A DNA stretch of 43,422 bases from Desulfobulbaceae bacterium (lineage in GTDB: Bacteria; Desulfobacterota; Desulfobulbia; Desulfobulbales; SURF-16). Below are positions 12,174-41,794 of this stretch, piece by piece. Location of the stretch: assembly GCA_027859235.1 (NCBI GenBank), contig JAQIBE010000061.1, forward strand, positions 1 through 43,422, written 5' to 3'. Under the pieces are notes generated by a model, which was given only the letters and a program-made list of their open reading frames with translations, did no database searches and was not told the origin of the DNA. Position 1 is the stretch's first letter. Every line of letters starts with the position of its first letter. The position numbers were made by a program, and so were the translations under genes.

Positions 12174-13073
12174 ATGCCTGATCCTACCCACATACCTGTT
12201 TTACTCGAAGAGGTCTTAGAGTATCTGCAGCCACAGGAAAACAAAGTTTATGTAGACGGAAACCTTGGGCTGGGGGGGCATTCCGGAGCCATTCTGGCGA
12301 GGTGCAACGGCAATGCGCAGCTCATTGGTTTTGACTGGGATGAAGAGGCCCAGCGCCGGGCAGTAAAGAATTTAGCCTCCTTTGGCGACAGAGTTACCTT
12401 TGTCCGGAGAAATTTTGCTGATCTCAAAGAGGTCCTGGCAGAGCTTGGCATAGCCCGGATTGACGGACTGCTCCTTGACCTGGGTCTCTCGTCTCTGCAG
12501 CTTGATGAAAGTGACCGGGGTTTTAGTTTCAAGCGTGAGGAGCCCCTGGACATGAGAATGGACAACCGGATCAGTGTTAATGCCGCTGATCTGGTGGCAA
12601 CGGCAAGTGAAGAAGAGCTGGCTGATATCTTCTTTCACTACGGTGAAGAGCGCCAGGCAAGACCCATAGCCCGGGCAATTTGTGAAACGAGAAAGAAATC
12701 GCCCATTACCACCAGTGCTGGACTTGCCCGTCTTATTTATGCTGCTATTCCCGTCAGGTTTCATCCGAAGAAGATCCACGTGGCCACTAAGGCCTTTCAG
12801 GGATTACGGATTGCGGTGAATCGGGAGTTGGATAATTTGGCAACAGTACTCAAGGATGGGGTGGACGTGCTTGCGCCCGGTGGACGTTTTTGTATCATTT
12901 CTTTTCATTCCCTGGAAGATCGGTTGGTGAAGAGAGGCTTTAAGGCGGACCCCAGGCTGCAGGTTTTGACGACCCGTCCTGTGGTTGCCGGCAAGGAAGA
13001 ATGTAATCAGAACCCGCGGTCCCGGAGTGCAAAACTTCGAGTGGCGGAAAAATTGGGAGAATACAATGCGTGA
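12174..13073 (+). CDS. rsmH: 16S rRNA (cytosine1402-N4)-methyltransferase
   Basis: RsmH (MraW) methylates C1402 of 16S rRNA with S-adenosylmethionine. The 299-residue length is normal. It begins HIPVLLEEVLEYL, with the SAM-binding segment NLGLGGHSG near residue 28, then LLLDLGLSSLQLDESDRGFSF and the C-terminal FISFHSLEDRLVKRGF and RSRSAKLRVAEK signatures. The ftsL-like gene starts at 13066, overlapping this gene's end by 8 bp. Confidence 0.96.
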   Translation: MPDPTHIPVLLEEVLEYLQPQENKVYVDGNLGLGGHSGAILARCNGNAQLIGFDWDEEAQRRAVKNLASFGDRVTFVRRNFADLKEVLAELGIARIDGLLLDLGLSSLQLDESDRGFSFKREEPLDMRMDNRISVNAADLVATASEEELADIFFHYGEERQARPIARAICETRKKSPITTSAGLARLIYAAIPVRFHPKKIHVATKAFQGLRIAVNRELDNLATVLKDGVDVLAPGGRFCIISFHSLEDRLVKRGFKADPRLQVLTTRPVVAGKEECNQNPRSRSAKLRVAEKLGEYNA

Positions 13074-13449
13074 TTATGCTCAAGGATATCGTTCAAAGGT
13101 ACATTCAAAGGTGCATTTCCCTGTGGCTCCGCGTCAGCCTCAGTACGGTGGGCGGACAGCTGCTCAACCCCTGCGGGCATTATTCTGGAAAACTGCCGGA
13201 ACTGTGCTGGTGGTTTGCATGTGTACAGGAATCATGGCCAGTTTTTGGATCGGCCAGCAAATCCAGAACAGTTTGTCCTCCATCGCTTCGTTGCAGCAGG
13301 TGGCGCTGCATGAGCAGAATGTGCACAATGTTCTGGTTGCAGAGCGGGAGGGGATGTTAGCCCCCAAGAGATTGCAGGCAAGGGCTGCGGTGCAGAATGG
13401 GTTGTACGCAGCAGTAGATAATCAGGAAGTTGACGAAGTTGACCTTTAG
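13066..13449 (+). CDS. ftsL: FtsL-like cell division protein
   Basis: This is a 127-residue single-pass protein placed between rsmH and ftsI, the standard position of ftsL. A positively charged cytoplasmic segment of about 40 residues precedes a membrane helix (about 43-66, TAGTVLVVCMCTGIMASFWIG) and a periplasmic region predicted as coiled coil (residues about 68-105). ATG 13066 has GGGAGA upstream; the frame opens further up inside rsmH. FtsL works with FtsB and FtsQ to activate the septal FtsWI synthase. The primary sequence is divergent, so the call rests on position, topology and size. Confidence 0.75.
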   Translation: MRDYAQGYRSKVHSKVHFPVAPRQPQYGGRTAAQPLRALFWKTAGTVLVVCMCTGIMASFWIGQQIQNSLSSIASLQQVALHEQNVHNVLVAEREGMLAPKRLQARAAVQNGLYAAVDNQEVDEVDL

Positions 13450-13477: not shown

Positions 13478-15403
13478 ATGGGTTATCAAAGACGCAACGG
13501 GCCGATTGACTATAAGGGCTACGGTAAGAATAAAAATAAAAATGCAGTTAACCTGATCCGACTTGGTGGGCTTGTTGCCCTTGTCCTTCTTGTGGGCTGG
13601 ATCCTCCTGCAGTTGTTTGGTTCCGGTGGAGAGGTGGCGTTCAAGGAAGAGCAAGCCTCGGTAGATGGCTTATTTTTAGACCGGAAAAATATATATGATC
13701 GAAATTTGCAACCGTTGGCGGTTAGCTTTTGTCAGTACGCAGCCTATGTAAAACCCCTGGAGGTAAAAGGGAAGGTTGAAACGGCGCAAATTTTAGCCGC
13801 AATCCTCGGCCTGGATGAGCAGGGGTTGCTGAACAGGCTTAATACGGAGCGAACTTTTATCTGGCTTGGCCAGCAGCTGCAAAGTGAACAGGCCAGGGCA
13901 ATTGTGGAGAGGAATATCGCAGGCGTCTACCTTCAGGAGAAACCGGTTCGCTATTATCCCCATGGGCAGTCCATGGCCCAGCTGCTTGGCTATGTCAAAG
14001 ATGGCAAGGGGCTTGCCGGTGTGGAATTGTATTATGATAATGTTTTGACTGGAGGAGTGGCCCAGGTCGGTGCGTCCCCTGCCTCCGGGCCTATTTTTGA
14101 AACGGGTAAGCATGTTGTATTAACCATTGATTTGCAAATCCAGACACAACTGGAGAAGGTTATGGTACAGCTTTTGAAAAAGACAGAGGCAACCTCGGTA
14201 TCAGCAATGCTCGTGCATACTGATAGCGGTGCGATCCTTGCGTCTGTGCAGTTACCCTCCTTTGATCCGAATAAATTCTGGGATGGTCATCCCCAGACCC
14301 AGCAACTCAAAATGGTTTCTTCTCTCATTGATACGGGCGGCATCTCTTCATTATTCCGCTATGCGGCTGCGGTGGATGGGGGGCGGTCTTTATCCCCTGC
14401 AACGAGTCAAAATGAGTCTCCTGTGGTTATTCAACCATCTCTTATGAAAACAGGTAGTCTGGCCCGGGCGGGATACTGGTGGCCTTGGGCAGGCGGCGGG
14501 TTTATCTCAGATGAGTTAACGGAACTTCCTGATCCCACCATTACTCCAAGTGAACTTCTGCATTTTCAGCAGAAATTGGGCATTACCTGTGCTGATAATT
14601 TTGATTTTCCCGACACCCAAATTCCCCATGGTAAGTGTGAGGAGGGCCAGCTCAACGGTGTTTCTCTTCTGGGTGGATTTACACGGCTCGTGAATGGTGG
14701 AAAACCTGTATATATCCACAGCCTGAAAGGTACTGTGGCCGATGATGGACAGTTCGCAACCTATGAATTTGCGGCGCGGGGCGAAGGGCTTGGCGGTGTG
14801 AGCGGCATGCTTGCTCAATCCTTTGTTGCCAGTGCAGGCGAGGGCGCACCCCTCTTTGCTGTGGAGTATTTATCCAGGCGGGCGCAGGATGATGCCGTGA
14901 CAGTGGAAACAGCAACCGATGACGGGGAAAGTCAGGTGTCGGTGCTGCAGAAAGAGTACCGCCATGACGGTCTGCTGCTGGGTGCCATACCGGCCAATAA
15001 TCCACAACTGACAGTACTCATGGTGGTTGAAGAGGGCATGTTTGATTTGCGCGCGGCATCGCCTTTGCGCAATATAATGAATCGGTTTGCCATTGGGGTG
15101 CGTCTTGATGGTCTTGATGAATCAACCTTGGCGGAGCAGGAAATGGTTGATCCCCTTGTGTTGAAAAAACAATTTGCTGGAATGTTGAATTCAGAGAAGG
15201 CTGTGTCACGGCCGAATGTCAGCAGAGCCACGCATCTAATGCCGGAGCTTCGCGGCATGAGTTTACGTAAGGCCTTAATCCTTCTGCAGCCCTCTATGGT
15301 GTCCGTGGAGATCAGAGGTGCAGGCCGGGTCATGAATCAGGTGCCAGAACCTGGAAGTGAAATGGGTGACCATGTTGTCTTGACTTTAGGCAATCAGGAG
15401 TAG
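13478..15403 (+). CDS. ftsI: FtsI/PBP2-like division protein lacking catalytic motifs (predicted pseudoenzyme)
   Basis: The 641-residue protein has the class B PBP layout: membrane helix at about 27-50, pedimer region (IYDRNLQPLA, RYYPHGQSMAQLLGY, GLAGVELYYD), transpeptidase-like domain from GKHVVLTIDLQIQ, and a C-terminal PASTA domain (about 580-641). The catalytic motifs are missing. From PSFDPN onward it aligns without gaps to E. coli FtsI. The active-site Ser (E. coli Ser307) becomes Gly288 and the Lys310 equivalent becomes Ser291. The KTGT-like motif aligned at VEYLSRRAQ is LSRR at 465-468. I also find no SxN. The surrounding framework, for example FDPN, VNGGKPVY and LLGAIPANNP, is conserved in one uninterrupted frame, so this is not a frameshift. 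It may be a structural division protein. Confidence 0.85.
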   Translation: MGYQRRNGPIDYKGYGKNKNKNAVNLIRLGGLVALVLLVGWILLQLFGSGGEVAFKEEQASVDGLFLDRKNIYDRNLQPLAVSFCQYAAYVKPLEVKGKVETAQILAAILGLDEQGLLNRLNTERTFIWLGQQLQSEQARAIVERNIAGVYLQEKPVRYYPHGQSMAQLLGYVKDGKGLAGVELYYDNVLTGGVAQVGASPASGPIFETGKHVVLTIDLQIQTQLEKVMVQLLKKTEATSVSAMLVHTDSGAILASVQLPSFDPNKFWDGHPQTQQLKMVSSLIDTGGISSLFRYAAAVDGGRSLSPATSQNESPVVIQPSLMKTGSLARAGYWWPWAGGGFISDELTELPDPTITPSELLHFQQKLGITCADNFDFPDTQIPHGKCEEGQLNGVSLLGGFTRLVNGGKPVYIHSLKGTVADDGQFATYEFAARGEGLGGVSGMLAQSFVASAGEGAPLFAVEYLSRRAQDDAVTVETATDDGESQVSVLQKEYRHDGLLLGAIPANNPQLTVLMVVEEGMFDLRAASPLRNIMNRFAIGVRLDGLDESTLAEQEMVDPLVLKKQFAGMLNSEKAVSRPNVSRATHLMPELRGMSLRKALILLQPSMVSVEIRGAGRVMNQVPEPGSEMGDHVVLTLGNQE

Positions 15404-15406
15404 CGG

Positions 15407-16978
15407 GTGGCAGTTCAAACCATAGGACTGCAGCAACTCCTGGCAGAGTGCGGTTATGAATGTCAGAGTGCGGATGACCAGGAGATCACTGGTGTCACGG
15501 CCGACTCCAGAGCGGTGCAATCCGGATTTGTTTTTGTGGCAGTGGCCGGGGTCAGTGTCAATGGTCATGAATTTATAGAGGATGCCGTTGCAAGGGGCGC
15601 TTGCCTCGTGGTGGTGGAAGCTGGCCACGTCAAGTCTGTACCCCGTGGTTGTGAAACCCTCACACTTGCTGATACGAGGGAGGGGTTGGCACAGCTTGCA
15701 GCATGTTTTTATAGATTTCCGGCACAGCGTATGAGGTTTGTCGGGGTAACGGGAACCAATGGTAAGACGACGTGCTCATATCTTATTGAATCCGTGTTGC
15801 AGGAGGCGGGTTTTAAAACAGGGCTTATCGGCACGGTGAGTTATCGGTTTGGCAGCGTGGAGCGCGCTGCCAGTCACACCACCCCTGACGCGGTACAGCT
15901 CCAGCGCTTATTGGCGGAAATGGCGGATGACGGTGTGACCCATGTGGTGATGGAGGTTTCATCCCATGCCTTGACGCAGGGGAGGGTGGCAGGGATCAGC
16001 TTTGCTGTTGCCCTGTTTACGAATTTGAGTCGTGATCATCTTGATTATCACCGTGGGATGGCAGACTATTTTGCGGCAAAGAGGAGACTGTTTACCGAGT
16101 TTTTGTCACCCCAGGGGATCGGCGTGGTTGTTGATGATGGGGGACAGGGGTGGAGCGACAAGCTGGTTGCTGCCCTGAGCCGGTCCGGTCGAAAAATAGT
16201 GGTTTGCGGCAGAAACAGGGACGTGTCATATGGCAATGTCCGTTTCTCCCTCAGGGGAATACAGGCGGATGTTGAGGTGGCGGGCCGGACGAATCGGGTG
16301 ACCTCACCCCTGGTTGGTGAGTTTAATTTGCAGAATATTTTAGGGACAATGGGTGTCGGTAAGGCGCTTGGTGTTGAACCGACAGCCATGATTCAGGGGC
16401 TCAAGTTTGCAACGGGCGCACCGGGCCGGATGGAACAGATTGTTATCCAAGGGGCCCCCCATCCCGCAGTCTTTGTTGATTATGCCCATACACCTGATGC
16501 CCTTGAAAAGGTGCTGGCAACCCTTACTGGTTTGACCAGGAAAAGGGTTATTGTGGTATTTGGCTGTGGCGGTGATCGCGATAGGGGCAAGCGGTCTCTC
16601 ATGGGTTGGGTTGCTGCGCAGGGGGCTGATATTGCCATTGCCACGTCTGATAATCCCCGCAGTGAAGATCCCATGCGGATTCTCCAGGCCATTGAAGTGG
16701 GTATGCAGGATGCGGGGGGGACGAGATTTACAGAGAAGTCTGAGTTCAAGGGGCATGGGAAGGGGTATCTCATTATTGAATCACGCAGGGAGGCCATAGC
16801 CTGCGCGATCACTATTGCCGAGAAGGATGACGTGGTTCTGATAAGCGGCAAAGGACATGAGACTTACCAGGAGACACGAGCAGGTCGAATCTGTTTTGAT
16901 GATCGCCTGGAGGCGACACAGCAACTGCAGCAGGTTTGGGGCAGGGCAGATGAAACACGTTCAGGTCCGGAAACCTGA
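15407..16978 (+). CDS. murE: UDP-N-acetylmuramoyl-tripeptide synthetase, meso-diaminopimelate type
   Basis: MurE adds the third residue of the peptidoglycan stem peptide using ATP. The 523 residues contain the N-terminal Mur domain, the P-loop GTNGKTT with Lys120, the central ligase domain (SSHALTQGRV, NLSRDHLDYH) and the C-terminal domain (GCGGDRDRGKR). The motif DNPR at 415-418 marks specificity for meso-diaminopimelate, the usual diamino acid of Gram-negative bacteria. Translation begins at GTG 15407, 3 bp after the ftsI stop codon, with a GGAG within the ftsI end serving as ribosome site. The C-terminus is normal. The repeat element at 16989 lies between this gene and murF. Confidence 0.97.
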   Translation: MAVQTIGLQQLLAECGYECQSADDQEITGVTADSRAVQSGFVFVAVAGVSVNGHEFIEDAVARGACLVVVEAGHVKSVPRGCETLTLADTREGLAQLAACFYRFPAQRMRFVGVTGTNGKTTCSYLIESVLQEAGFKTGLIGTVSYRFGSVERAASHTTPDAVQLQRLLAEMADDGVTHVVMEVSSHALTQGRVAGISFAVALFTNLSRDHLDYHRGMADYFAAKRRLFTEFLSPQGIGVVVDDGGQGWSDKLVAALSRSGRKIVVCGRNRDVSYGNVRFSLRGIQADVEVAGRTNRVTSPLVGEFNLQNILGTMGVGKALGVEPTAMIQGLKFATGAPGRMEQIVIQGAPHPAVFVDYAHTPDALEKVLATLTGLTRKRVIVVFGCGGDRDRGKRSLMGWVAAQGADIAIATSDNPRSEDPMRILQAIEVGMQDAGGTRFTEKSEFKGHGKGYLIIESRREAIACAITIAEKDDVVLISGKGHETYQETRAGRICFDDRLEATQQLQQVWGRADETRSGPET

Positions 16979-19857: not shown

Positions 19858-21288
19858 TTGCAGATTAACCCGCAACTTATAAAAAATATGAAAAAAAAAT
19901 CTTTGCATAAGGGGCAGCATGTCCTTGTGGTGGGTGCCGGGAAATCCGGCATGGCTGCCTGCCGTCTTTTACACAGCAAAGGGTGTGAAGTGTGCTTAAG
20001 CGATACCAGGCAGGAATCACAGCAGGATCCAGAAGATGTGGATTGGCTCAAGGCAAGGTCCATTGTTCAGGAGTTTGGCGGACATCATCTGGCAACATTT
20101 ATGGTGCCGGATCTCATTGTCGTCAGTCCCGGGGTGCCGCTTACCATTGATCCATTGCAGGCAGCGCGCACAGCAGGTGTACCAATAATTGGCGAGCTTG
20201 AACTCGGCTTTCTCTATTTCACCGGTGCCATCATCGCAATTACGGGGACAAACGGTAAAACCACGGTCACCACCATGATTGGTGAGAGTCTGCGCCATTC
20301 CGGGATGAACGTGTTTGTCGGTGGCAATATAGGGACGCCGTTTTGTTCCCATGTCCTGGAGGAAAATCAAGCTGAGGTTGCAGTGCTTGAGGTGTCCAGC
20401 TTTCAGCTTGATGCCAATAGAGATTTTAAGCCAAAGGTCGGGGTTCTTTTGAACATAAGTCCTGATCACTTGGATCGGTATGCAAGTTACACCGCCTATG
20501 GCGATGCAAAAATGCAGCTGTTTAAACAGCAGAATGAACAGGATGTTGCGCTTATTTCTGGTACGGACCGGGAAATCGCCCGGCGCAGGTCCATGATACC
20601 GGCCAGGGTTGTTGAGTTTGATAATGACAGTTGGCGGGTCAATGCAGAAGAGCGCAGCTTGACATGGGTTAACCAAGAATCAGGTGCTGAAACCTATGGG
20701 CTTCATGATCATCAGCTGAGTCGTCCCAATCTGCAAAACTGTATGGCGGCCATTGGTGGTTCACGGCTCATGGGGGCAACCAGGAATGGTGTGCAGGAAA
20801 TGCTTAATGAATTTGCTATTCCACTCCATCGTTTGACGCCGGTGGGGTCATGGAATGATATCGAGTTTGTCAATGATTCAAAGGCCACCAATGTCGGCGC
20901 GGTGCAGTCTGCCCTGTCCGGCATGCATAGGCCCGTTATTCTTATTGCTGGGGGGCGTGATAAGGGTGGCGATTATGCAATTCTTTGTCCTGAGGTAAAA
21001 CGCATTGTGAAACAGCTTATTGTTATGGGTGAAGCTGCACAACAGATGACGGCAGCTTTTACTGAAATTACCACGGTGCACCAGGCTGCGGATATGGAAG
21101 ACGCGGTTAACCTGGCTGTGGCCCATGCAGAACAGGGGGATACGATTCTTCTTTCTCCAGCCTGTGCCAGTTTTGATATGTATGGGAGTTATGCAGAGCG
21201 CGGTAATGTATTTATGGAGCAGGTGCAGCGAGTCATGGGGAAATACGGGACACCCGCAACCGTTAAGACCATACAGAGGGCGGTGTAA
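19858..21288 (+). CDS. murD: UDP-N-acetylmuramoylalanine--D-glutamate ligase
   Basis: MurD adds D-glutamate to UDP-MurNAc-L-Ala. Motifs include VVGAGKSGMAA at the N-terminus, the P-loop TGTNGKTTVT with Lys134 (from the TTG start), LNISPDHLDRY, NDSKATNVGA and LIAGGRDKGGD. The start is uncertain. TTG 19858 has GAGAAG just upstream, whereas ATG 19888 (MKKKSLHKGQ) lacks a ribosome site. murG follows after 4 bp; ftsW, which usually stands here, is absent. Confidence 0.95.
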   Translation: MQINPQLIKNMKKKSLHKGQHVLVVGAGKSGMAACRLLHSKGCEVCLSDTRQESQQDPEDVDWLKARSIVQEFGGHHLATFMVPDLIVVSPGVPLTIDPLQAARTAGVPIIGELELGFLYFTGAIIAITGTNGKTTVTTMIGESLRHSGMNVFVGGNIGTPFCSHVLEENQAEVAVLEVSSFQLDANRDFKPKVGVLLNISPDHLDRYASYTAYGDAKMQLFKQQNEQDVALISGTDREIARRRSMIPARVVEFDNDSWRVNAEERSLTWVNQESGAETYGLHDHQLSRPNLQNCMAAIGGSRLMGATRNGVQEMLNEFAIPLHRLTPVGSWNDIEFVNDSKATNVGAVQSALSGMHRPVILIAGGRDKGGDYAILCPEVKRIVKQLIVMGEAAQQMTAAFTEITTVHQAADMEDAVNLAVAHAEQGDTILLSPACASFDMYGSYAERGNVFMEQVQRVMGKYGTPATVKTIQRAV

Positions 21289-21292
21289 GCCA

Positions 21293-22390
21293 ATGCGAAT
21301 CTTAATCAGCGGGGGGGGCACCGGGGGACATTTATTCCCAGGTATTGCCGTGGCTCAGGAAGTGCTTCATTCCGTGAGTCGCAGTGAGGTGTTGTTTGTG
21401 TCGACAGATCGGCAGACAGATAAGAGGGTGCTTGCCGATGTGGACTTTAAGTCCATGCCGCTCAACTCAAAAGGCATCAAGGGAAAATCTCTTATTGATC
21501 GACTGGTCGCCCTCCTGCAATTACCGTTATCCCTTGTTGCGGCCCTGAAGATAATCGGCGATTTTAAACCGGAGGTGGTGCTTGGTGTCGGTGGATATGT
21601 TACAGGGCCTATGCTTCTTGCCGCATGGCTGCGGGGTGTTCCTACCTGTATTCATGAACAGAATTCGCTGCCGGGACTTGCCAACCGTATACTTTCGAAA
21701 TTTGTAACCCGGGTGTATGTGTCTCTTCCTGGAACAGAAAAACACTTTCCCAGGAATAAGACCATTCATACGGGCAACCCTGTACGCCAGGAAGTGAAAT
21801 CCTTACGCTCTGGAGAGAAAAAACAGGGTGGTTTTACCCTCCTGGTGATGGGTGGGAGCCTTGGTGCCCATGCCATAAACCAGGCCATGATTGAAGCAGT
21901 ACAGGTATTGAAAAAAAGAGTGCCCCTGGGTTTCAGCATTATTCATCAGACAGGTAACGAGGACGAGGAAAAAGTACGTGAGGCCTATGCCGATGGAGGT
22001 CTCACTGCAACGGTCTCCCCCTTTATTCATGAAATGCCCATGGCTATGGCCAAGGCGGATCTGGTGGTGGGACGGGCGGGTGCTACGAGTCTTGCAGAAC
22101 TAACTGTAATGGGGAAGCCGATGATTCTTATCCCTTATCCCCATGCTGCAGATAACCATCAGGAGCTGAATGGCGCAATGCTGGTACAGGGTGGCGCTGC
22201 CAGAATGATTCGGGAGAGTGAGTTGAGTGGTATTGGTCTTGCTGAAGAGATACTGGCCCTGGTTCAAAGTGACGATAAACGGCAGAAAATGGCAGATATG
22301 GCGTTGAAATTTGGCGAACCTGATGCCGCCCAAAAAATAGTTAGCCAATGTCTGGCTTTAGCTGCGGCCCATAAGACCTCACTGGAGTGA
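21293..22390 (+). CDS. murG: UDP-GlcNAc:lipid I N-acetylglucosaminyltransferase
   Basis: MurG converts lipid I to lipid II at the membrane surface. The 365 residues begin MRILISGGGTGGHLFPG, the donor-side glycine-rich loop. They continue with VLGVGGYVTGP, IHEQNSLPGLANRIL, MGGSLGA and VGRAGATSLAE, all typical. ATG 21293 is the start, because the open frame further upstream lies inside murD. It follows murD by 4 bp, indicating coupling, and murC follows 21 bp later. Confidence 0.97.
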   Translation: MRILISGGGTGGHLFPGIAVAQEVLHSVSRSEVLFVSTDRQTDKRVLADVDFKSMPLNSKGIKGKSLIDRLVALLQLPLSLVAALKIIGDFKPEVVLGVGGYVTGPMLLAAWLRGVPTCIHEQNSLPGLANRILSKFVTRVYVSLPGTEKHFPRNKTIHTGNPVRQEVKSLRSGEKKQGGFTLLVMGGSLGAHAINQAMIEAVQVLKKRVPLGFSIIHQTGNEDEEKVREAYADGGLTATVSPFIHEMPMAMAKADLVVGRAGATSLAELTVMGKPMILIPYPHAADNHQELNGAMLVQGGAARMIRESELSGIGLAEEILALVQSDDKRQKMADMALKFGEPDAAQKIVSQCLALAAAHKTSLE

Positions 22391-23882: not shown

Positions 23883-24866
23883 ATGGAAGCATTCGTAATG
23901 GAGAGAGAGGACATGGCAAGGGTTAGAGAAATGCCGGCATGGAGTTCGGTGTTTAACGATGGTATGGCCGACTTTTGGGTTGGTGAGGTGCTGTGGCAGC
24001 AACCCATGTCAGAATACACGACCTATAGGGTTGGCGGGCCTGCCCAGGCCATGGTCTTCCCCTGTGGCATAAGGGAGCTTGCCAGTTTACTGGATGGGGT
24101 TTGCCGGTTGGATATCCCCTGGCGGGTCATTGGCGGTGGTTCGAATATTCTCGTGTCAGATAAGGGGCTCGAGGGTGTCACCATTGTCTTGACTAAAGGA
24201 TTCTCTGCAAAGACCATTGTTCATGAAGTGGATGATCATGTTCTGGTTAAGGTGGAAACAGGATGTTCACTGGCAAGTTTTGTGAACTGGTGTGTGGAGC
24301 ATGGGTTGACAGGAATGGAATTTGCGGTTGGCATTCCGGGCTCCATCGGTGGTGCCATGGTGATGAATGCCGGGGCCTTTGGTGGAGAAATTTCCAAGGT
24401 CCTTGGTTCTGTAACCTTGATGAACAGTCAGGGTGAGGTGGTGGAAAAGGAGGCGTGCAGGATGAATTACACGTACCGTAACTGGGGTGAAGAGCGCGGT
24501 CAGATTGCCCTTGAAGGATTGTTTGCTCTCCGGCGTGGAGATAGTCAGGCGATTCGTACCAGTTGCAGGAAGCTCCTGAAGAAGCGCCAAACCCATCAAC
24601 CAAAGGGGCCCAGTTGCGGATCGTTTTTCAGGAATCCTCCCGGTGCTGAAACGGCTGGATATTTAATTGAAAAAGCTGGACTCAAAGGGACACGGGTTGG
24701 CGGGGCTGAGATTTCCAAGATCCACGCAAATTTTTTAATTAATAGGGGTAATGCCTCGGCCCGGGATTTGGTCCGGTTAATGGAACTGGTGCAGAATGAA
24801 GTAGAACAGAAGTTCGGTGTGTTTTTGGAGCCAGAAGTGAAATTGCTTGGGTTTGAACCGGGGTGA
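23883..24866 (+). CDS. murB: UDP-N-acetylenolpyruvoylglucosamine reductase
   Basis: MurB is the FAD enzyme that reduces UDP-GlcNAc-enolpyruvate to UDP-MurNAc. Motifs are TTYRVGGPAQAMVFP, VIGGGSNILVSDKGLEG, GMEFAVGIPGSIGGAMVMNAGAFG, the catalytic GPSCGSFFRNPPG, and IHANFLINRGNASARD, with a C-terminal glutamate in LEPEVKLLG. ATG 23883 is preferred (AGAGGGTG upstream), giving 327 residues; the frame opens 15 codons earlier in the hairpin. Its TGA stop overlaps the ftsQ GTG start. Confidence 0.95.
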   Translation: MEAFVMEREDMARVREMPAWSSVFNDGMADFWVGEVLWQQPMSEYTTYRVGGPAQAMVFPCGIRELASLLDGVCRLDIPWRVIGGGSNILVSDKGLEGVTIVLTKGFSAKTIVHEVDDHVLVKVETGCSLASFVNWCVEHGLTGMEFAVGIPGSIGGAMVMNAGAFGGEISKVLGSVTLMNSQGEVVEKEACRMNYTYRNWGEERGQIALEGLFALRRGDSQAIRTSCRKLLKKRQTHQPKGPSCGSFFRNPPGAETAGYLIEKAGLKGTRVGGAEISKIHANFLINRGNASARDLVRLMELVQNEVEQKFGVFLEPEVKLLGFEPG

Positions 24867-25666
24867 AGTCGAAGAAGTCAAAATACTCGAGGACGGTTCG
24901 GGAAAAGGTCGGTGCTGGTTCATCCATAAGACATCAGGTTGTTGGTGCTGCAGTGGGAATTGTCGGTGTAGTTTTCGGTTTTTTTGTGTTAGGCTGGCTG
25001 GGTTATGTTGGCTTGAGCCATTCACCTTTTTTTGAGGTTGAATCAGTAAATATTACAGGCAGTTCTAAGTTTGGCCATGATGAGATTCTCAGTCTCATTG
25101 GTATAACAAACCAGACCAATCTTGTTGCTGTTGATAAGGTCGAGATTGGTGAGGAATTAAAAAAGACGGGATGGATACGCAGGGTCAGTGTCAAGAAGGT
25201 GTATCCCAATAGTCTGGAGATACAAATTCAGGAGCGAAAACCTCTGGCCATAGTGCAGTTGCAACAGGGGTTGTCTTATTTTGACAAGAGTGGGTTTGTT
25301 TTTGCCGGGGTGAAACCGGGAGAGGGTTTGGACTTTCCTGTGGTGCATTTTGCTGATGAGACCATGGTGGCTGGCAAAGACTCCATGAAAAATGTCACCG
25401 ATTTTCTGAAATACACCAGAAGTGGTAATCCGGCCCTGTCTATTCAGAATGTCTCGCAGATTATGGTGGATGAACAGGGGGACCTGACTCTATATATGGC
25501 CGATAATCCCTTCCCTGTGCAAATAGGGCAGACCAAGATGTGGCAAAAGTATAAGCGTTTGGCAAAGGTGCTTGGCTGGCTGTATAAAAAGAAGAAGTTT
25601 GATACAGTGACAATGATTGATCTGGAGTATTCGGAAGGTCGGGTTCTGGTGAGTTTTCAAAGTTAA
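24863..25666 (+). CDS. ftsQ: FtsQ/DivIB-type cell division protein
   Basis: The 267-residue bitopic protein starts at GTG 24863, overlapping the murB stop (GTGA). A basic cytoplasmic segment of about 28 residues leads to a membrane helix (about 29-51). A POTRA domain follows (EVESVNITGSSKFGHDEILSLIG through VYPNSLEIQIQERKPLAIV), then the beta domain ending in DTVTMIDLEYSEGRVLVSF. FtsQ recruits FtsL and FtsB to the septum. The ddl gene often found between murB and ftsQ is not present. Confidence 0.92.
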   Translation: MKSKKSKYSRTVREKVGAGSSIRHQVVGAAVGIVGVVFGFFVLGWLGYVGLSHSPFFEVESVNITGSSKFGHDEILSLIGITNQTNLVAVDKVEIGEELKKTGWIRRVSVKKVYPNSLEIQIQERKPLAIVQLQQGLSYFDKSGFVFAGVKPGEGLDFPVVHFADETMVAGKDSMKNVTDFLKYTRSGNPALSIQNVSQIMVDEQGDLTLYMADNPFPVQIGQTKMWQKYKRLAKVLGWLYKKKKFDTVTMIDLEYSEGRVLVSFQS

Positions 25667-25751: not shown

Positions 25752-26984
25752 ATGACGCAAAGTCAGCAAAGAGGAGAAATCATTGTTGGGCTGGATATTG
25801 GGACCACCAAGATCTGTACCATCGTAGGCGAGGTCCTCGATGAGAAGCTGGAGATTATCGGTTTTGGGGTGCATCCCTCTGTGGGTATGCGCAAAGGGGT
25901 GGTGGTGAATATCGAGGCCACTGTGCAGTCCATCAGAAAATCAGTCCATGAGGCCGAAGTCATGGCCAATTGTGATATCTCCTCAGTATTTGTGGGAATC
26001 GCGGGCTCACATGTGGTTGGCACCAATAGCAACGGGGTGATTGCGGTAAAGAATCATGAAATAACAGAGCAGGATATTGCCCGGGTTGTGGAGAATGGTC
26101 AGGCTATTCCCCTGAGCCAGGAGCAGGAGGTGCTGCATGTTATCCCTCAGGATTTCACCGTGGATGGTCAGGGTGGAATCCAGGACCCTTTAGGCATGAC
26201 CGCTGTACGCCTTGAGGCGAATGTGCATATTGTCACCGCTTCAACAACGGCGGTGCATAATATTGTGAAGTGTTGCAATAAGGCCGGACTTGATGTGGAT
26301 GATGTGGTGCTGGAACCTATCGCGTCTGCAGAAGCGGTCTTGACCTATGAGGAGATGGAAATTGGTGTCGGCTTACTGGATATTGGTGGTGGTACAAGTG
26401 ATCTCGCCGTGTTCAGTGACCATTCCATCCGCCAGACGTTTGTTCTCGGTATTGGTGGTGATAATCTCACCAATGATCTCTCCCAGGGGTTACGGACGCC
26501 CCTTGTTGAGGCTGAGAAGCTCAAAGAAAAATATGGGTGTGCGATTGCCTCGATGATTGATAAGGATCAGGCCATTGATGTTCCCAGTGTCGGCGGGAAG
26601 CAATGTCGGAAATTATCCCAGCGGGTTATGGGTGAGATCCTTGAGCCGCGGATTGAAGAGATGTTGCTCCTGGTGAATCAACAGCTTGTGGATCACAATA
26701 TTAAAGGTAGTATCCATGCGGGCATCGTCATGACGGGCGGGAGCTCATTGCTGGCCAATATGGAGGACCTTGCGGAACAGATTTTTGATCTCCCTGTGCG
26801 CATCGGCTATCCAAATCATGTGGAGGGGATTACCGACTTGGTGAATACCCCGCAATGTGCAACAGGAGTTGGTCTGCTGCTCTATGGCATGAAGCATGAG
26901 CCTGGCCGTTTTGTGCCGGATGATTCCGGGGTGCTTGCTAAGATTGGCCAGCGGTTAAAAGGTTTTTTTAAGAAAGTGATGTAG
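25752..26984 (+). CDS. ftsA: Cell division protein FtsA
   Basis: FtsA is an actin-like ATPase that tethers FtsZ to the membrane. The 410 residues contain the phosphate-1 loop VGLDIGTTKIC, the 1C domain, LLDIGGGTSDLAVF (phosphate 2), MTGGSSLLANM, and a C-terminal amphipathic helix (LAKIGQRLKGFFKKVM) that serves as the membrane target. The ribosome site is TGAGGAA directly before ATG 25752. A 141-bp spacer with a long imperfect hairpin precedes ftsZ. Confidence 0.97.
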   Translation: MTQSQQRGEIIVGLDIGTTKICTIVGEVLDEKLEIIGFGVHPSVGMRKGVVVNIEATVQSIRKSVHEAEVMANCDISSVFVGIAGSHVVGTNSNGVIAVKNHEITEQDIARVVENGQAIPLSQEQEVLHVIPQDFTVDGQGGIQDPLGMTAVRLEANVHIVTASTTAVHNIVKCCNKAGLDVDDVVLEPIASAEAVLTYEEMEIGVGLLDIGGGTSDLAVFSDHSIRQTFVLGIGGDNLTNDLSQGLRTPLVEAEKLKEKYGCAIASMIDKDQAIDVPSVGGKQCRKLSQRVMGEILEPRIEEMLLLVNQQLVDHNIKGSIHAGIVMTGGSSLLANMEDLAEQIFDLPVRIGYPNHVEGITDLVNTPQCATGVGLLLYGMKHEPGRFVPDDSGVLAKIGQRLKGFFKKVM

Positions 26985-27125: not shown

Positions 27126-28283
27126 ATGGCAGAGTTTAAAATGGCAGAATTTCCTGGCCGGGCCAAAATCAAGGTGTTTGGTGTTGGCGGCGCCGGCGGT
27201 AACGCTATAAATAACATGGTGGACAGTAGAATCGGCGGGGTGGAGTTTATCTCGGGCAATACGGATCTCCAGGATCTGGAACGATCCAAGGCGGATGTGC
27301 AGGTGCAGCTTGGGCCAAGTATTAGTGGTGGTCTTGGTGCCGGGGCAAAGCCTGATGTTGGTCGCCAATGTGCTGAGGAGTCCATTGATATTATTCGCGA
27401 GAGTTTGCAGGGTGCGGAGATGGTCTTTGTGGCGGCCGGTCTGGGTGGCGGAACGGGTACAGGAGCGGCTCCGGTGATTGCCCGGATTGCCAAGGAGCTC
27501 GGCGCCCTTACCGTGGCTGTGGTTACAAAACCCTTTGTCTTTGAAGGGCCGAAACGGATGAAAGCCGCTATGAAGGGGTGGAATGAATTAAAGGAACAGG
27601 TGGATACGATCATCACGATTCCCAATGATCGTGTCCTGCCTTTGTCCCAGAAAAATATGACCTTTGTTGATTCCATGCGTATGGTGGATGATGTGCTGGT
27701 TAAAGCGGTAAAGGGGATAACGGATCTGATTAATAAGGATGGTTATATCAATCCTGATTTTGCTGATATCTGCACGGTAATGAATGAAATGGGTACCGCA
27801 CTTATGGGGTCTGGTTCCTCGGTTGGGGAGAATCGTGCCAAGGAGGCGGTGAAGCAGGCCATTGAAAGTCCGCTTCTTGAAGATGTTTCCATCCGCGGTG
27901 CCCGGGGTGTTCTGGTGAATATGTCTGCCCGCCGTGATTCTCTGGGCATGCATGAGGTGACAGAGGTAACCAGTCGTATTCAGCAGGAGGTGCATGAAGA
28001 TGCCGATATCATCATGGGTGTTATCTTTGATGAAGATGCCGGTGAAGAGTTACGCGTCACTGTCGTGGCTACCGGTATTCAGGAAGAGGTCATCCTGGAG
28101 ATAACCCCGATTGCTGTTAATGGTCGTGGCAGGTTTGCAAGGGCTGATAGTTCTGAGCCACAACCCTCTTCTTCTCCCCATAATAAGGGCACTGTCATTC
28201 CAAATGCCTTTGGACTAAACGTTAATCCCCTGGATGAAAAGACCTTGGATACTCCAGCCTTTATCCGCAGGAATGCGAATTGA
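27126..28283 (+). CDS. ftsZ: Cell division protein FtsZ
   Basis: FtsZ is the tubulin-like GTPase that forms the Z ring. The 385 residues have the nucleotide motif GVGGAGGNAINNM, the tubulin signature GGGTGTG at 107-113, the T7 synergy loop INPDFADI and a short linker of about 40 residues. The C-terminus ends in DTPAFIRRNAN, matching the conserved peptide that binds FtsA. Catalytic residues look intact, in contrast to the ftsI product. The ribosome site is GAGGGG, and a terminator lies 100 bp downstream. Confidence 0.98.
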   Translation: MAEFKMAEFPGRAKIKVFGVGGAGGNAINNMVDSRIGGVEFISGNTDLQDLERSKADVQVQLGPSISGGLGAGAKPDVGRQCAEESIDIIRESLQGAEMVFVAAGLGGGTGTGAAPVIARIAKELGALTVAVVTKPFVFEGPKRMKAAMKGWNELKEQVDTIITIPNDRVLPLSQKNMTFVDSMRMVDDVLVKAVKGITDLINKDGYINPDFADICTVMNEMGTALMGSGSSVGENRAKEAVKQAIESPLLEDVSIRGARGVLVNMSARRDSLGMHEVTEVTSRIQQEVHEDADIIMGVIFDEDAGEELRVTVVATGIQEEVILEITPIAVNGRGRFARADSSEPQPSSSPHNKGTVIPNAFGLNVNPLDEKTLDTPAFIRRNAN

Positions 28284-41326: not shown

Positions 41327-41402
41327 GCTGGTGTAGCTCAATTGGTAGAGCAGCTGATTTGTAATCAGCAGGTCGCGGGTTCGAGTCCCATCACCAGCTC
41401 CA
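41327..41402 (+). tRNA. tRNA-Thr (anticodon TGT)
   Basis: The acceptor stem GCTGGTG/CACCAGC, D-arm GCTCAATTGGTAGAGC, anticodon stem GCTGATTTGTAATCAGC with anticodon TGT and T-arm GGGTTCGAGTCCC are all present. The CCA end is encoded (41400-41402). Confidence 0.97.
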
Positions 41403-41456
41403 TTTTTTGCTTGCCCGAAAGAGAGTCATTTGCTATAAAGGCTTTCTTTCATGAGA

Positions 41457-41541
41457 GGAGGGGTTCCCGAGTGGCCAAAGGGATCAGACTGTAAATCTGA
41501 CGGCAGCGCCTTCGGAGGTTCGAATCCTCCCCCCTCCACCA
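41457..41541 (+). tRNA. tRNA-Tyr (anticodon GTA)
   Basis: The acceptor stem GGAGGGG/CCCCTCC, anticodon GTA in GACTGTAAATC, a long variable arm (CGGCAGCGCCTTCG region), T-arm GGTTCGAATCC and encoded CCA are visible. The 85-nt length reflects the long variable arm. Confidence 0.96.
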
Positions 41542-41601
41542 TTTTGCATTACTGCTGTTTCAGATTCTTTTGTTAAGGTTTGGGGCAGCTTATAAGTGAA
41601 G

Positions 41602-41627
41602 ATGCTCTCTTTGAGCATTTTTTTTTG
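41602..41627 (+). terminator. Short terminator-like hairpin between tRNA-Tyr and tRNA-Gly
   Basis: A 6-bp stem ATGCTC/GAGCAT with a TCTTT loop is followed by eight T residues. It lies 3 bp before tRNA-Gly. Confidence 0.5.
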
Positions 41628-41629
41628 TC

Positions 41630-41705
41630 GCGGGAATAGCTCAATTGGTAGAGCATCAGCCTTCCAAGCTGAGGGTCGCGAGTTCGAGCCTCGTTTCCCG
41701 CTCCA
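41630..41705 (+). tRNA. tRNA-Gly (anticodon TCC)
   Basis: The acceptor stem GCGGGAA/TTCCCGC, D-arm GCTCAATTGGTAGAGC, anticodon loop CTTCCAA with TCC, T-arm GAGTTCGAGCCTC and encoded CCA are present. Confidence 0.96.
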
Positions 41706-41718
41706 GTTTGTACAGGAC

Positions 41719-41794
41719 GCTCATGTAGCTCAGATGGTAGAGCACATCCTTGGTAAGGATGAGGTCATCGGTTCGATTCCGATCATGAGCTCCA
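41719..41794 (+). tRNA. tRNA-Thr (anticodon GGT)
   Basis: The acceptor stem GCTCATG/CATGAGC, D-arm GCTCAGATGGTAGAGC, anticodon stem CATCC/GGATG with loop TTGGTAA, T-arm CGGTTCGATTCCG and encoded CCA are present. This is the second threonine isoacceptor in the cluster. Confidence 0.97.

Follow-up and report, generated by a model that had tools for sequence, protein, structure and literature searches.

Sequence comparison indicates that the order Desulfobulbales as a whole lacks FtsW and yet carries, at its usual place in the dcw cluster, an FtsI that is predicted to be catalytically dead. FtsW and FtsI form the enzyme pair that builds the cell-division wall; with FtsW lost and FtsI dead, this textbook pair cannot be at work. 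The reading favored here, which we consider quite probable, is that the dead FtsI is a lineage-wide pseudoenzyme kept as a non-catalytic divisome adaptor, with RodA-PBP2 as the simplest source of septal wall. The starting point was a 641-aa protein encoded at 13478..15403 (+) of the window, the term used here for the whole 43,422-nucleotide stretch of Desulfobulbaceae DNA that was analyzed.

The gene belongs to a dcw cluster ordered mraZ, rsmH, an FtsL-like ORF, ftsI, murE, murF, mraY, murD, murG, murC, murB, ftsQ, ftsA and ftsZ, and related loci show ftsI at the same place, between rsmH/ftsL and murE. All features with coordinates given here lie on the plus strand. The upstream marker is RsmH (MraW; 12174..13073; Pfam Methyltransf_5, E=3e-104) and the downstream marker is MurE (15407..16978; Mur ligase domains). 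Further downstream are FtsQ (24863..25666; POTRA_1 and FtsQ_DivIB_C above cut-off), FtsA (25752..26984; TIGR01174, 434 bits) and FtsZ (27126..28283; TIGR00065, 394 bits). The ORF between rsmH and ftsI (13066..13449) encodes 127 aa with one hydrophobic segment and is weakly recognized as FtsL, since NF049847 matches at E=2e-5, below its cut-off and on a longer frame. This weakly similar ORF occupies the canonical ftsL place, whereas an earlier survey reported no encoded FtsL for Desulfobulbaceae (PMC7873302). In E. coli, ftsW directly follows murD. Here, the junction of the murD stop and the murG start (21286..21295) leaves that place empty: the last base of murD is 21288 and the first of murG 21293, so that 4 bases separate the two, and tblastn found no FtsW-like sequence there or anywhere else in the window. 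Four tRNA genes stand in tandem at 41327-41791 of the window.

The 641-aa dcw protein is FtsI by position, fold, pedestal and PASTA domain. An earlier note, made from the DNA sequence alone, had described a full-length frame with pedimer motifs, an FDPN landmark and a PASTA domain, and this description holds: the frame translates into 641 aa with no internal stop, the Pfam PBP_dimer and PASTA matches both exceed their cut-offs, and the PSFDPN landmark falls at residues 260-265. A helix at residues 23-47 (13544..13618), seen in the AlphaFold2 model and coinciding with a hydrophobic stretch, is the likely N-terminal transmembrane anchor. It is followed by the pedestal at residues 67-210 (13676..14107; PF03717, E=1e-14), a degenerate transpeptidase domain at residues 211-545 (14108..15112) and the PASTA domain at residues 586-640 (15233..15397; E=2e-5), which includes an SLRKAL stretch. 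The Pfam transpeptidase model (PF00905) reaches 16.3 bits against a cut-off of 22.1 bits, over residues 242-280 only. The AlphaFold2 model, built with 34 orthologues, has a mean pLDDT of 77 and a pTM of 0.70, and its top Foldseek matches include C. difficile SpoVD (E=4e-28), P. aeruginosa PBP3 (E=4e-27; TM-score 0.64 over target 7onz) and PBP2x. With SpoVD and PBP3 as the best matches, the protein has kept the transpeptidase fold although the motifs are gone.

The loss of the motifs was followed residue by residue. From an ungapped alignment to E. coli FtsI, the earlier note had placed Gly288 at the nucleophile and Ser291 at the SxxK lysine. The same assignment results when the protein is multiply aligned with FtsI of E. 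coli K-12 and with canonical relatives, with Gly288 (14339..14341) corresponding to E. coli Ser307 and Ser291 (14348..14350) to Lys310, and a profile search of PDB sequences pairs "EPGSTVKPF" of P. aeruginosa PBP3 with "PGGLSRLF" of the 641-aa protein. The KTGT place is occupied by LSRR at residues 465-468 (14870..14881) within VEYLSRRAQ, as had been claimed; the numbering was checked, and the PDB profile alignment gives the same region, pairing PBP3 "KSGTARK" with a degenerate "aesLvrkaeee" stretch. The claim that no SxN motif exists needs amending: the motif is indeed lost, but its place can be located at S344-D-E346 (14507..14515), where the serine is retained and the asparagine is not. In these alignments, neither the SxxK nucleophile and lysine, nor the SxN motif, nor the KTG on strand beta-3 is intact. 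Between the nucleophile and SxN places lies a Trp-rich stretch, AGYWWPWA (window 14468-14491, residues 331-338), which is conserved in the closest genera and may fill the old active-site pocket.

A displaced triad, or the use of some other nucleophile, would leave FtsI an active enzyme. The strings SQN (310-312), SLMK (321-324) and KTGS (324-327) do occur in this protein (P0001), and Ser344 of SxN is retained in many FtsI of the order. Considered as an active site, the three strings were rejected: they are misordered, they lie in a loop (residues 307-329) with pLDDT <50, and they are absent as a set from the FtsI of the closest relative. The predicted structure, a check proposed in the earlier note, keeps the transpeptidase fold and confines the stray motifs to this loop. 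Among 76 FtsI of the order, no conserved substitute for the nucleophile or the lysine was found, and an active enzyme of this kind is extremely unlikely. The SLMK/KTGS strings (window 14438-14458, residues 321-327) could nonetheless be mistaken for an active site by motif searches.

The genome that contains the window is a draft of 333 contigs, 97% complete. Its PF00905 matches are a PBP2 (624 aa, motifs intact), a PBP1A and a 1103-aa GT51/transpeptidase protein, with no others, so the search for another class B PBP suggested by the earlier note returned only the PBP2 beside RodA. The SEDS family (PF01098) is found once; this protein scores 405 bits with the RodA model TIGR02210 and 294 bits with the ftsW model, whose cut-off is 337.5. 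Its gene directly follows that of PBP2, downstream of mreB, mreC and mreD. RodA is thus the only SEDS protein, and no FtsW partner was found in this genome. An FtsB/DivIC protein is also encoded, beside FtsQ. Very long class A PBPs of ~1100 aa (L003 at G000:C192 and similar frames in other genomes), with a GT51 part and SxxK, SxN-like and KTG motifs, recur across the order.

The same state extends across the Desulfobulbales. The 641-aa FtsI has a match in 243 of the order's 258 genomes, and of the 76 FtsI loci read, spread across its families, none has both the serine and the lysine. At the nucleophile position stand G, A, L, E, P, V, T and other residues; at the lysine position, R, G, L, S and others. 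In a contig scan with an 11-sequence alignment as the query, dead FtsI was found in the type strains Desulfogranum mediterraneum DSM 13871 (L208) and D. japonicum DSM 18378 (L212), as well as in Desulfurivibrio sp. AMeS2 (L182) and in a MAG labelled Desulfobulbus propionicus (L205). A SEDS match is present in 236 of the 258 genomes, exactly one in 227, and every one typed is RodA. The additional SEDS genes of nine genomes were considered as FtsW and rejected as fragments or RodA duplicates: they are pieces of one gene or belong to G119, an assembly with 8% contamination and two near-equal RodA. PF00905 detected no second FtsI in the window's genome or in 23 well-assembled genomes of the order, several of them in one contig; each of the 23 has one strong PBP2-type match, the rest being class A frames or weak. 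Proteins of ~620 aa with PF00905 matches in other genomes read, considered as a second FtsI, turned out to carry a GT51 part and to be class A PBPs.

The draft state of the window's genome (333 contigs, 97% completeness) leaves some room for an artefact, in which the real FtsI and FtsW were missed or the region was misassembled. However, the same state is seen in a sister species with 69% identity, in one-contig genomes and in the assemblies of type strains. The sole apparent counter-example (G475, with RodA only and a canonical FtsI) is explained by a 100-N assembly gap at the murD-ftsW-murG-murC place of its dcw cluster. An artefact is almost certainly not the explanation.

The pattern of constraint shows what has been kept. 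Comparison of the window species with its sister (69% identity) gave dN 0.24, dS ~2.5, which is saturated, and dN/dS ~0.1. Mean pairwise identity in the pedestal is 37.7% among degenerate FtsI versus 36.9% among canonical FtsI; in the PASTA domain the values are 44.2% versus 32.1%, and in the transpeptidase domain 24.4% versus 46.2%. Constraint has thus shifted away from the catalytic domain, while the docking and PASTA domains retain it. Four columns of the dead domain are nevertheless near-invariant (W334, N406, G408 and P509), indicating that it is still a folded part of the protein. A functionless, decaying relic could account for the fast-evolving transpeptidase domain and for the much shortened protein of some other clades. 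Against this, the frames are intact in the genomes read and dN/dS is ~0.1, so the gene is not decaying; the pedestal is as conserved as in active FtsI and the PASTA domain more so, and the gene position is kept wherever examined. A relic is very unlikely. These comparisons strongly support the reading of a conserved pseudoenzyme, whose triad is lost clade-wide and whose remainder is under purifying selection. The selective retention of pedestal, PASTA domain and dcw position is consistent with a structural or allosteric role.

Outside the order, an even sample of the phylum showed two SEDS genes in most genomes. Among readable Desulfobacterota FtsI that do not belong to the RodA-only clades, 29 of 29 keep serine, lysine, SxN and KTG, and FtsI retrieved by similarity from other phyla have the serine and the lysine. 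Four further RodA-only clades were found (lineages f31; f43/69/75/79/91/96; f42/78; f38/68), in which the FtsI between rsmH and murE is dead or shortened and the SEDS protein, where typed, scores higher as RodA than as FtsW. FtsI is dead in f31, f69, f75, f79 and f96. The shortened proteins measure ~410 aa in f43, ~450 in f78, ~320 in f42, ~250 in f38 and 280-345 in f68, and they retain a hydrophobic N-terminus together with pedestal remnants and/or a PASTA-like end. In f38 and f68 (L156-L162, L165), proteins of 248-345 aa combine an N-terminal hydrophobic segment with a C-terminal PASTA-like stretch; their pedestal and transpeptidase domains are unrecognizable, as if the protein had been pared to anchor plus PASTA. 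In the one-contig genomes of f42 (L154, L155), proteins of 320-324 aa have a hydrophobic N-terminal segment and a pedestal-like part, with no PASTA and no transpeptidase motifs. With the pedestal unrecognizable in f38/f68 and PASTA lost in f42, none of the parts is common to all clades. In f91, murE and murF lie in one frame and are apparently fused (L163, 3357-5999).

Genomes with a single SEDS protein and an FtsI-type protein as their only class B PBP (f32, f36, f82 and f99) have an intact FtsI, and in the three that were typed, f32, f82 and f99, the SEDS protein is FtsW. A mirror image of the RodA-only state is seen in G274, G425, G412, G491 and G278, which have one SEDS protein (FtsW where typed), an intact FtsI and no PBP2-type match, a pattern that resembles loss of the elongation pair. 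Two drafts were set aside: G299 has no SEDS match, and its canonical FtsI lies at the end of a contig; G324 has one SEDS match and a canonical FtsI. Taken together, the RodA-only and FtsW lineages show a recurring link between FtsW absence and FtsI degeneracy that holds in every resolved case. On an RsmH+MurE tree with weak deep nodes, degenerate FtsI appears in five separate clades, with a parsimony count of 5 (L217 degenerate); because of this weak deep support, the number of independent losses is uncertain. The inference of a pseudoenzyme in the earlier note is borne out by this recurrence and by the absence of FtsW, in addition to the fixed loss and purifying selection within the order.

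The protein resembles FtsI/PBP3 of E. coli and P. aeruginosa in its dcw position, N-terminal anchor, pedestal and transpeptidase fold, and FtsQ, FtsB and probably FtsL are present. It differs in lacking the nucleophile serine, the lysine, the SxN asparagine and KTG, in possessing PASTA, and in residing in a genome without FtsW. The FtsW-FtsI pair has been described as universally conserved and essential, with a clostridial exception reported: vegetative division of C. difficile uses a class A PBP and no canonical FtsW/FtsI pair (PMC10693644). Both systems would perform septation without the textbook pair and keep FtsQ/L/B; in C. difficile, however, the dcw-encoded SpoVE/SpoVD are present and specialized for sporulation (PMC10693644), whereas here FtsW is absent, FtsI is dead and the lineages are Gram-negative.

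A non-catalytic adaptor is proposed on the basis of precedents from three organisms. In the P. aeruginosa FtsWIQBL structure, FtsI touches FtsW in the membrane and FtsL via its pedestal (PMC7614612). In S. aureus PBP1, a divisome class B PBP with essential non-catalytic functions that include peptidoglycan binding by PASTA, PASTA loss stops septal plate formation separately from the loss of catalysis; PBP1 is a real enzyme, however, its activity is also essential in MSSA, and the dead form is a laboratory allele (PMC9426605). The class B PBPs SpoVD and PBP3 of C. difficile have a division function independent of catalysis and can support asymmetric division without it (PMC12713402). Those are laboratory mutants, and SpoVD depends on its SEDS partner SpoVE even when inactive (PMC12713402), whereas the loss described here arose in nature and the SEDS partner is missing. 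In both precedents (PMC9426605, PMC12713402), the PBP still acts alongside other PBPs or an active SEDS protein.

What follows on the adaptor role, on what the adaptor contacts and on which enzyme is the septal synthase is what we infer. The active site of FtsI would have been lost together with its partner glycosyltransferase FtsW, and the anchor, pedestal, degenerate transpeptidase fold and PASTA domain would have been kept for a non-catalytic job at the division site. The dead FtsI probably survives as a scaffold, most likely as a docking and sensing subunit: its pedestal would bind the FtsL of FtsQLB, the PASTA domain may contact the peptidoglycan of the septum, and the whole would connect the FtsZ/FtsA/FtsQLB machinery to the septum-building synthase. 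Because FtsW loss removes the polymer supply for FtsI cross-linking, the FtsQLB-facing surface is the most likely reason for keeping the protein. If FtsW is the main partner of the pedestal, conservation of the pedestal without FtsW needs a new partner, perhaps RodA.

RodA-PBP2, as the only SEDS/class B PBP pair left, is the likeliest septal synthase and would serve both elongation and division, with the help of class A PBPs. The main rival for this role is a class A PBP acting as the main septal wall maker, like C. difficile PBP1, with the dead FtsI merely stabilizing FtsQLB or regulating the class A PBP. Class A PBPs with intact motifs exist in the genomes read, and the ~1100-aa protein is a candidate septal synthase; RodA-PBP2, however, is conserved order-wide, and nothing marks a class A PBP as divisome-bound. 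We regard this arrangement as possible, at rather less than even chances. A broader scenario builds on the RodA-PBP2 reading: FtsW-FtsI would have been discarded in this order and several other clades, RodA-PBP2 would build the septum, recruited or switched by the dead FtsI adaptor, and FtsI would then erode stepwise to a small anchor plus PASTA or anchor plus pedestal protein. It is advanced tentatively, its odds falling just short of even.

The absence of ftsW has been noted before, in two Electrothrix and two Desulfobulbus genomes, according to the available part of PMC7873302. That part has septal wall synthesis depend on FtsI activity, following the E. coli model, assumes FtsI recruitment and leaves a dead FtsI unmentioned. 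No earlier report of a dead FtsI was found in the literature searched (subscription papers lay outside the search).

An order with >200 sequenced species of Gram-negative bacteria, culturable type strains among them, has lost FtsW and kept a dead FtsI, which amounts to a natural experiment in which the structural role of FtsI is set apart from its catalytic one. It makes testable whether RodA-PBP2 can build a septum, and it predicts that FtsI-directed beta-lactams would be without an FtsI target in these organisms. It also alters the reading of cell division in cable bacteria and their relatives.
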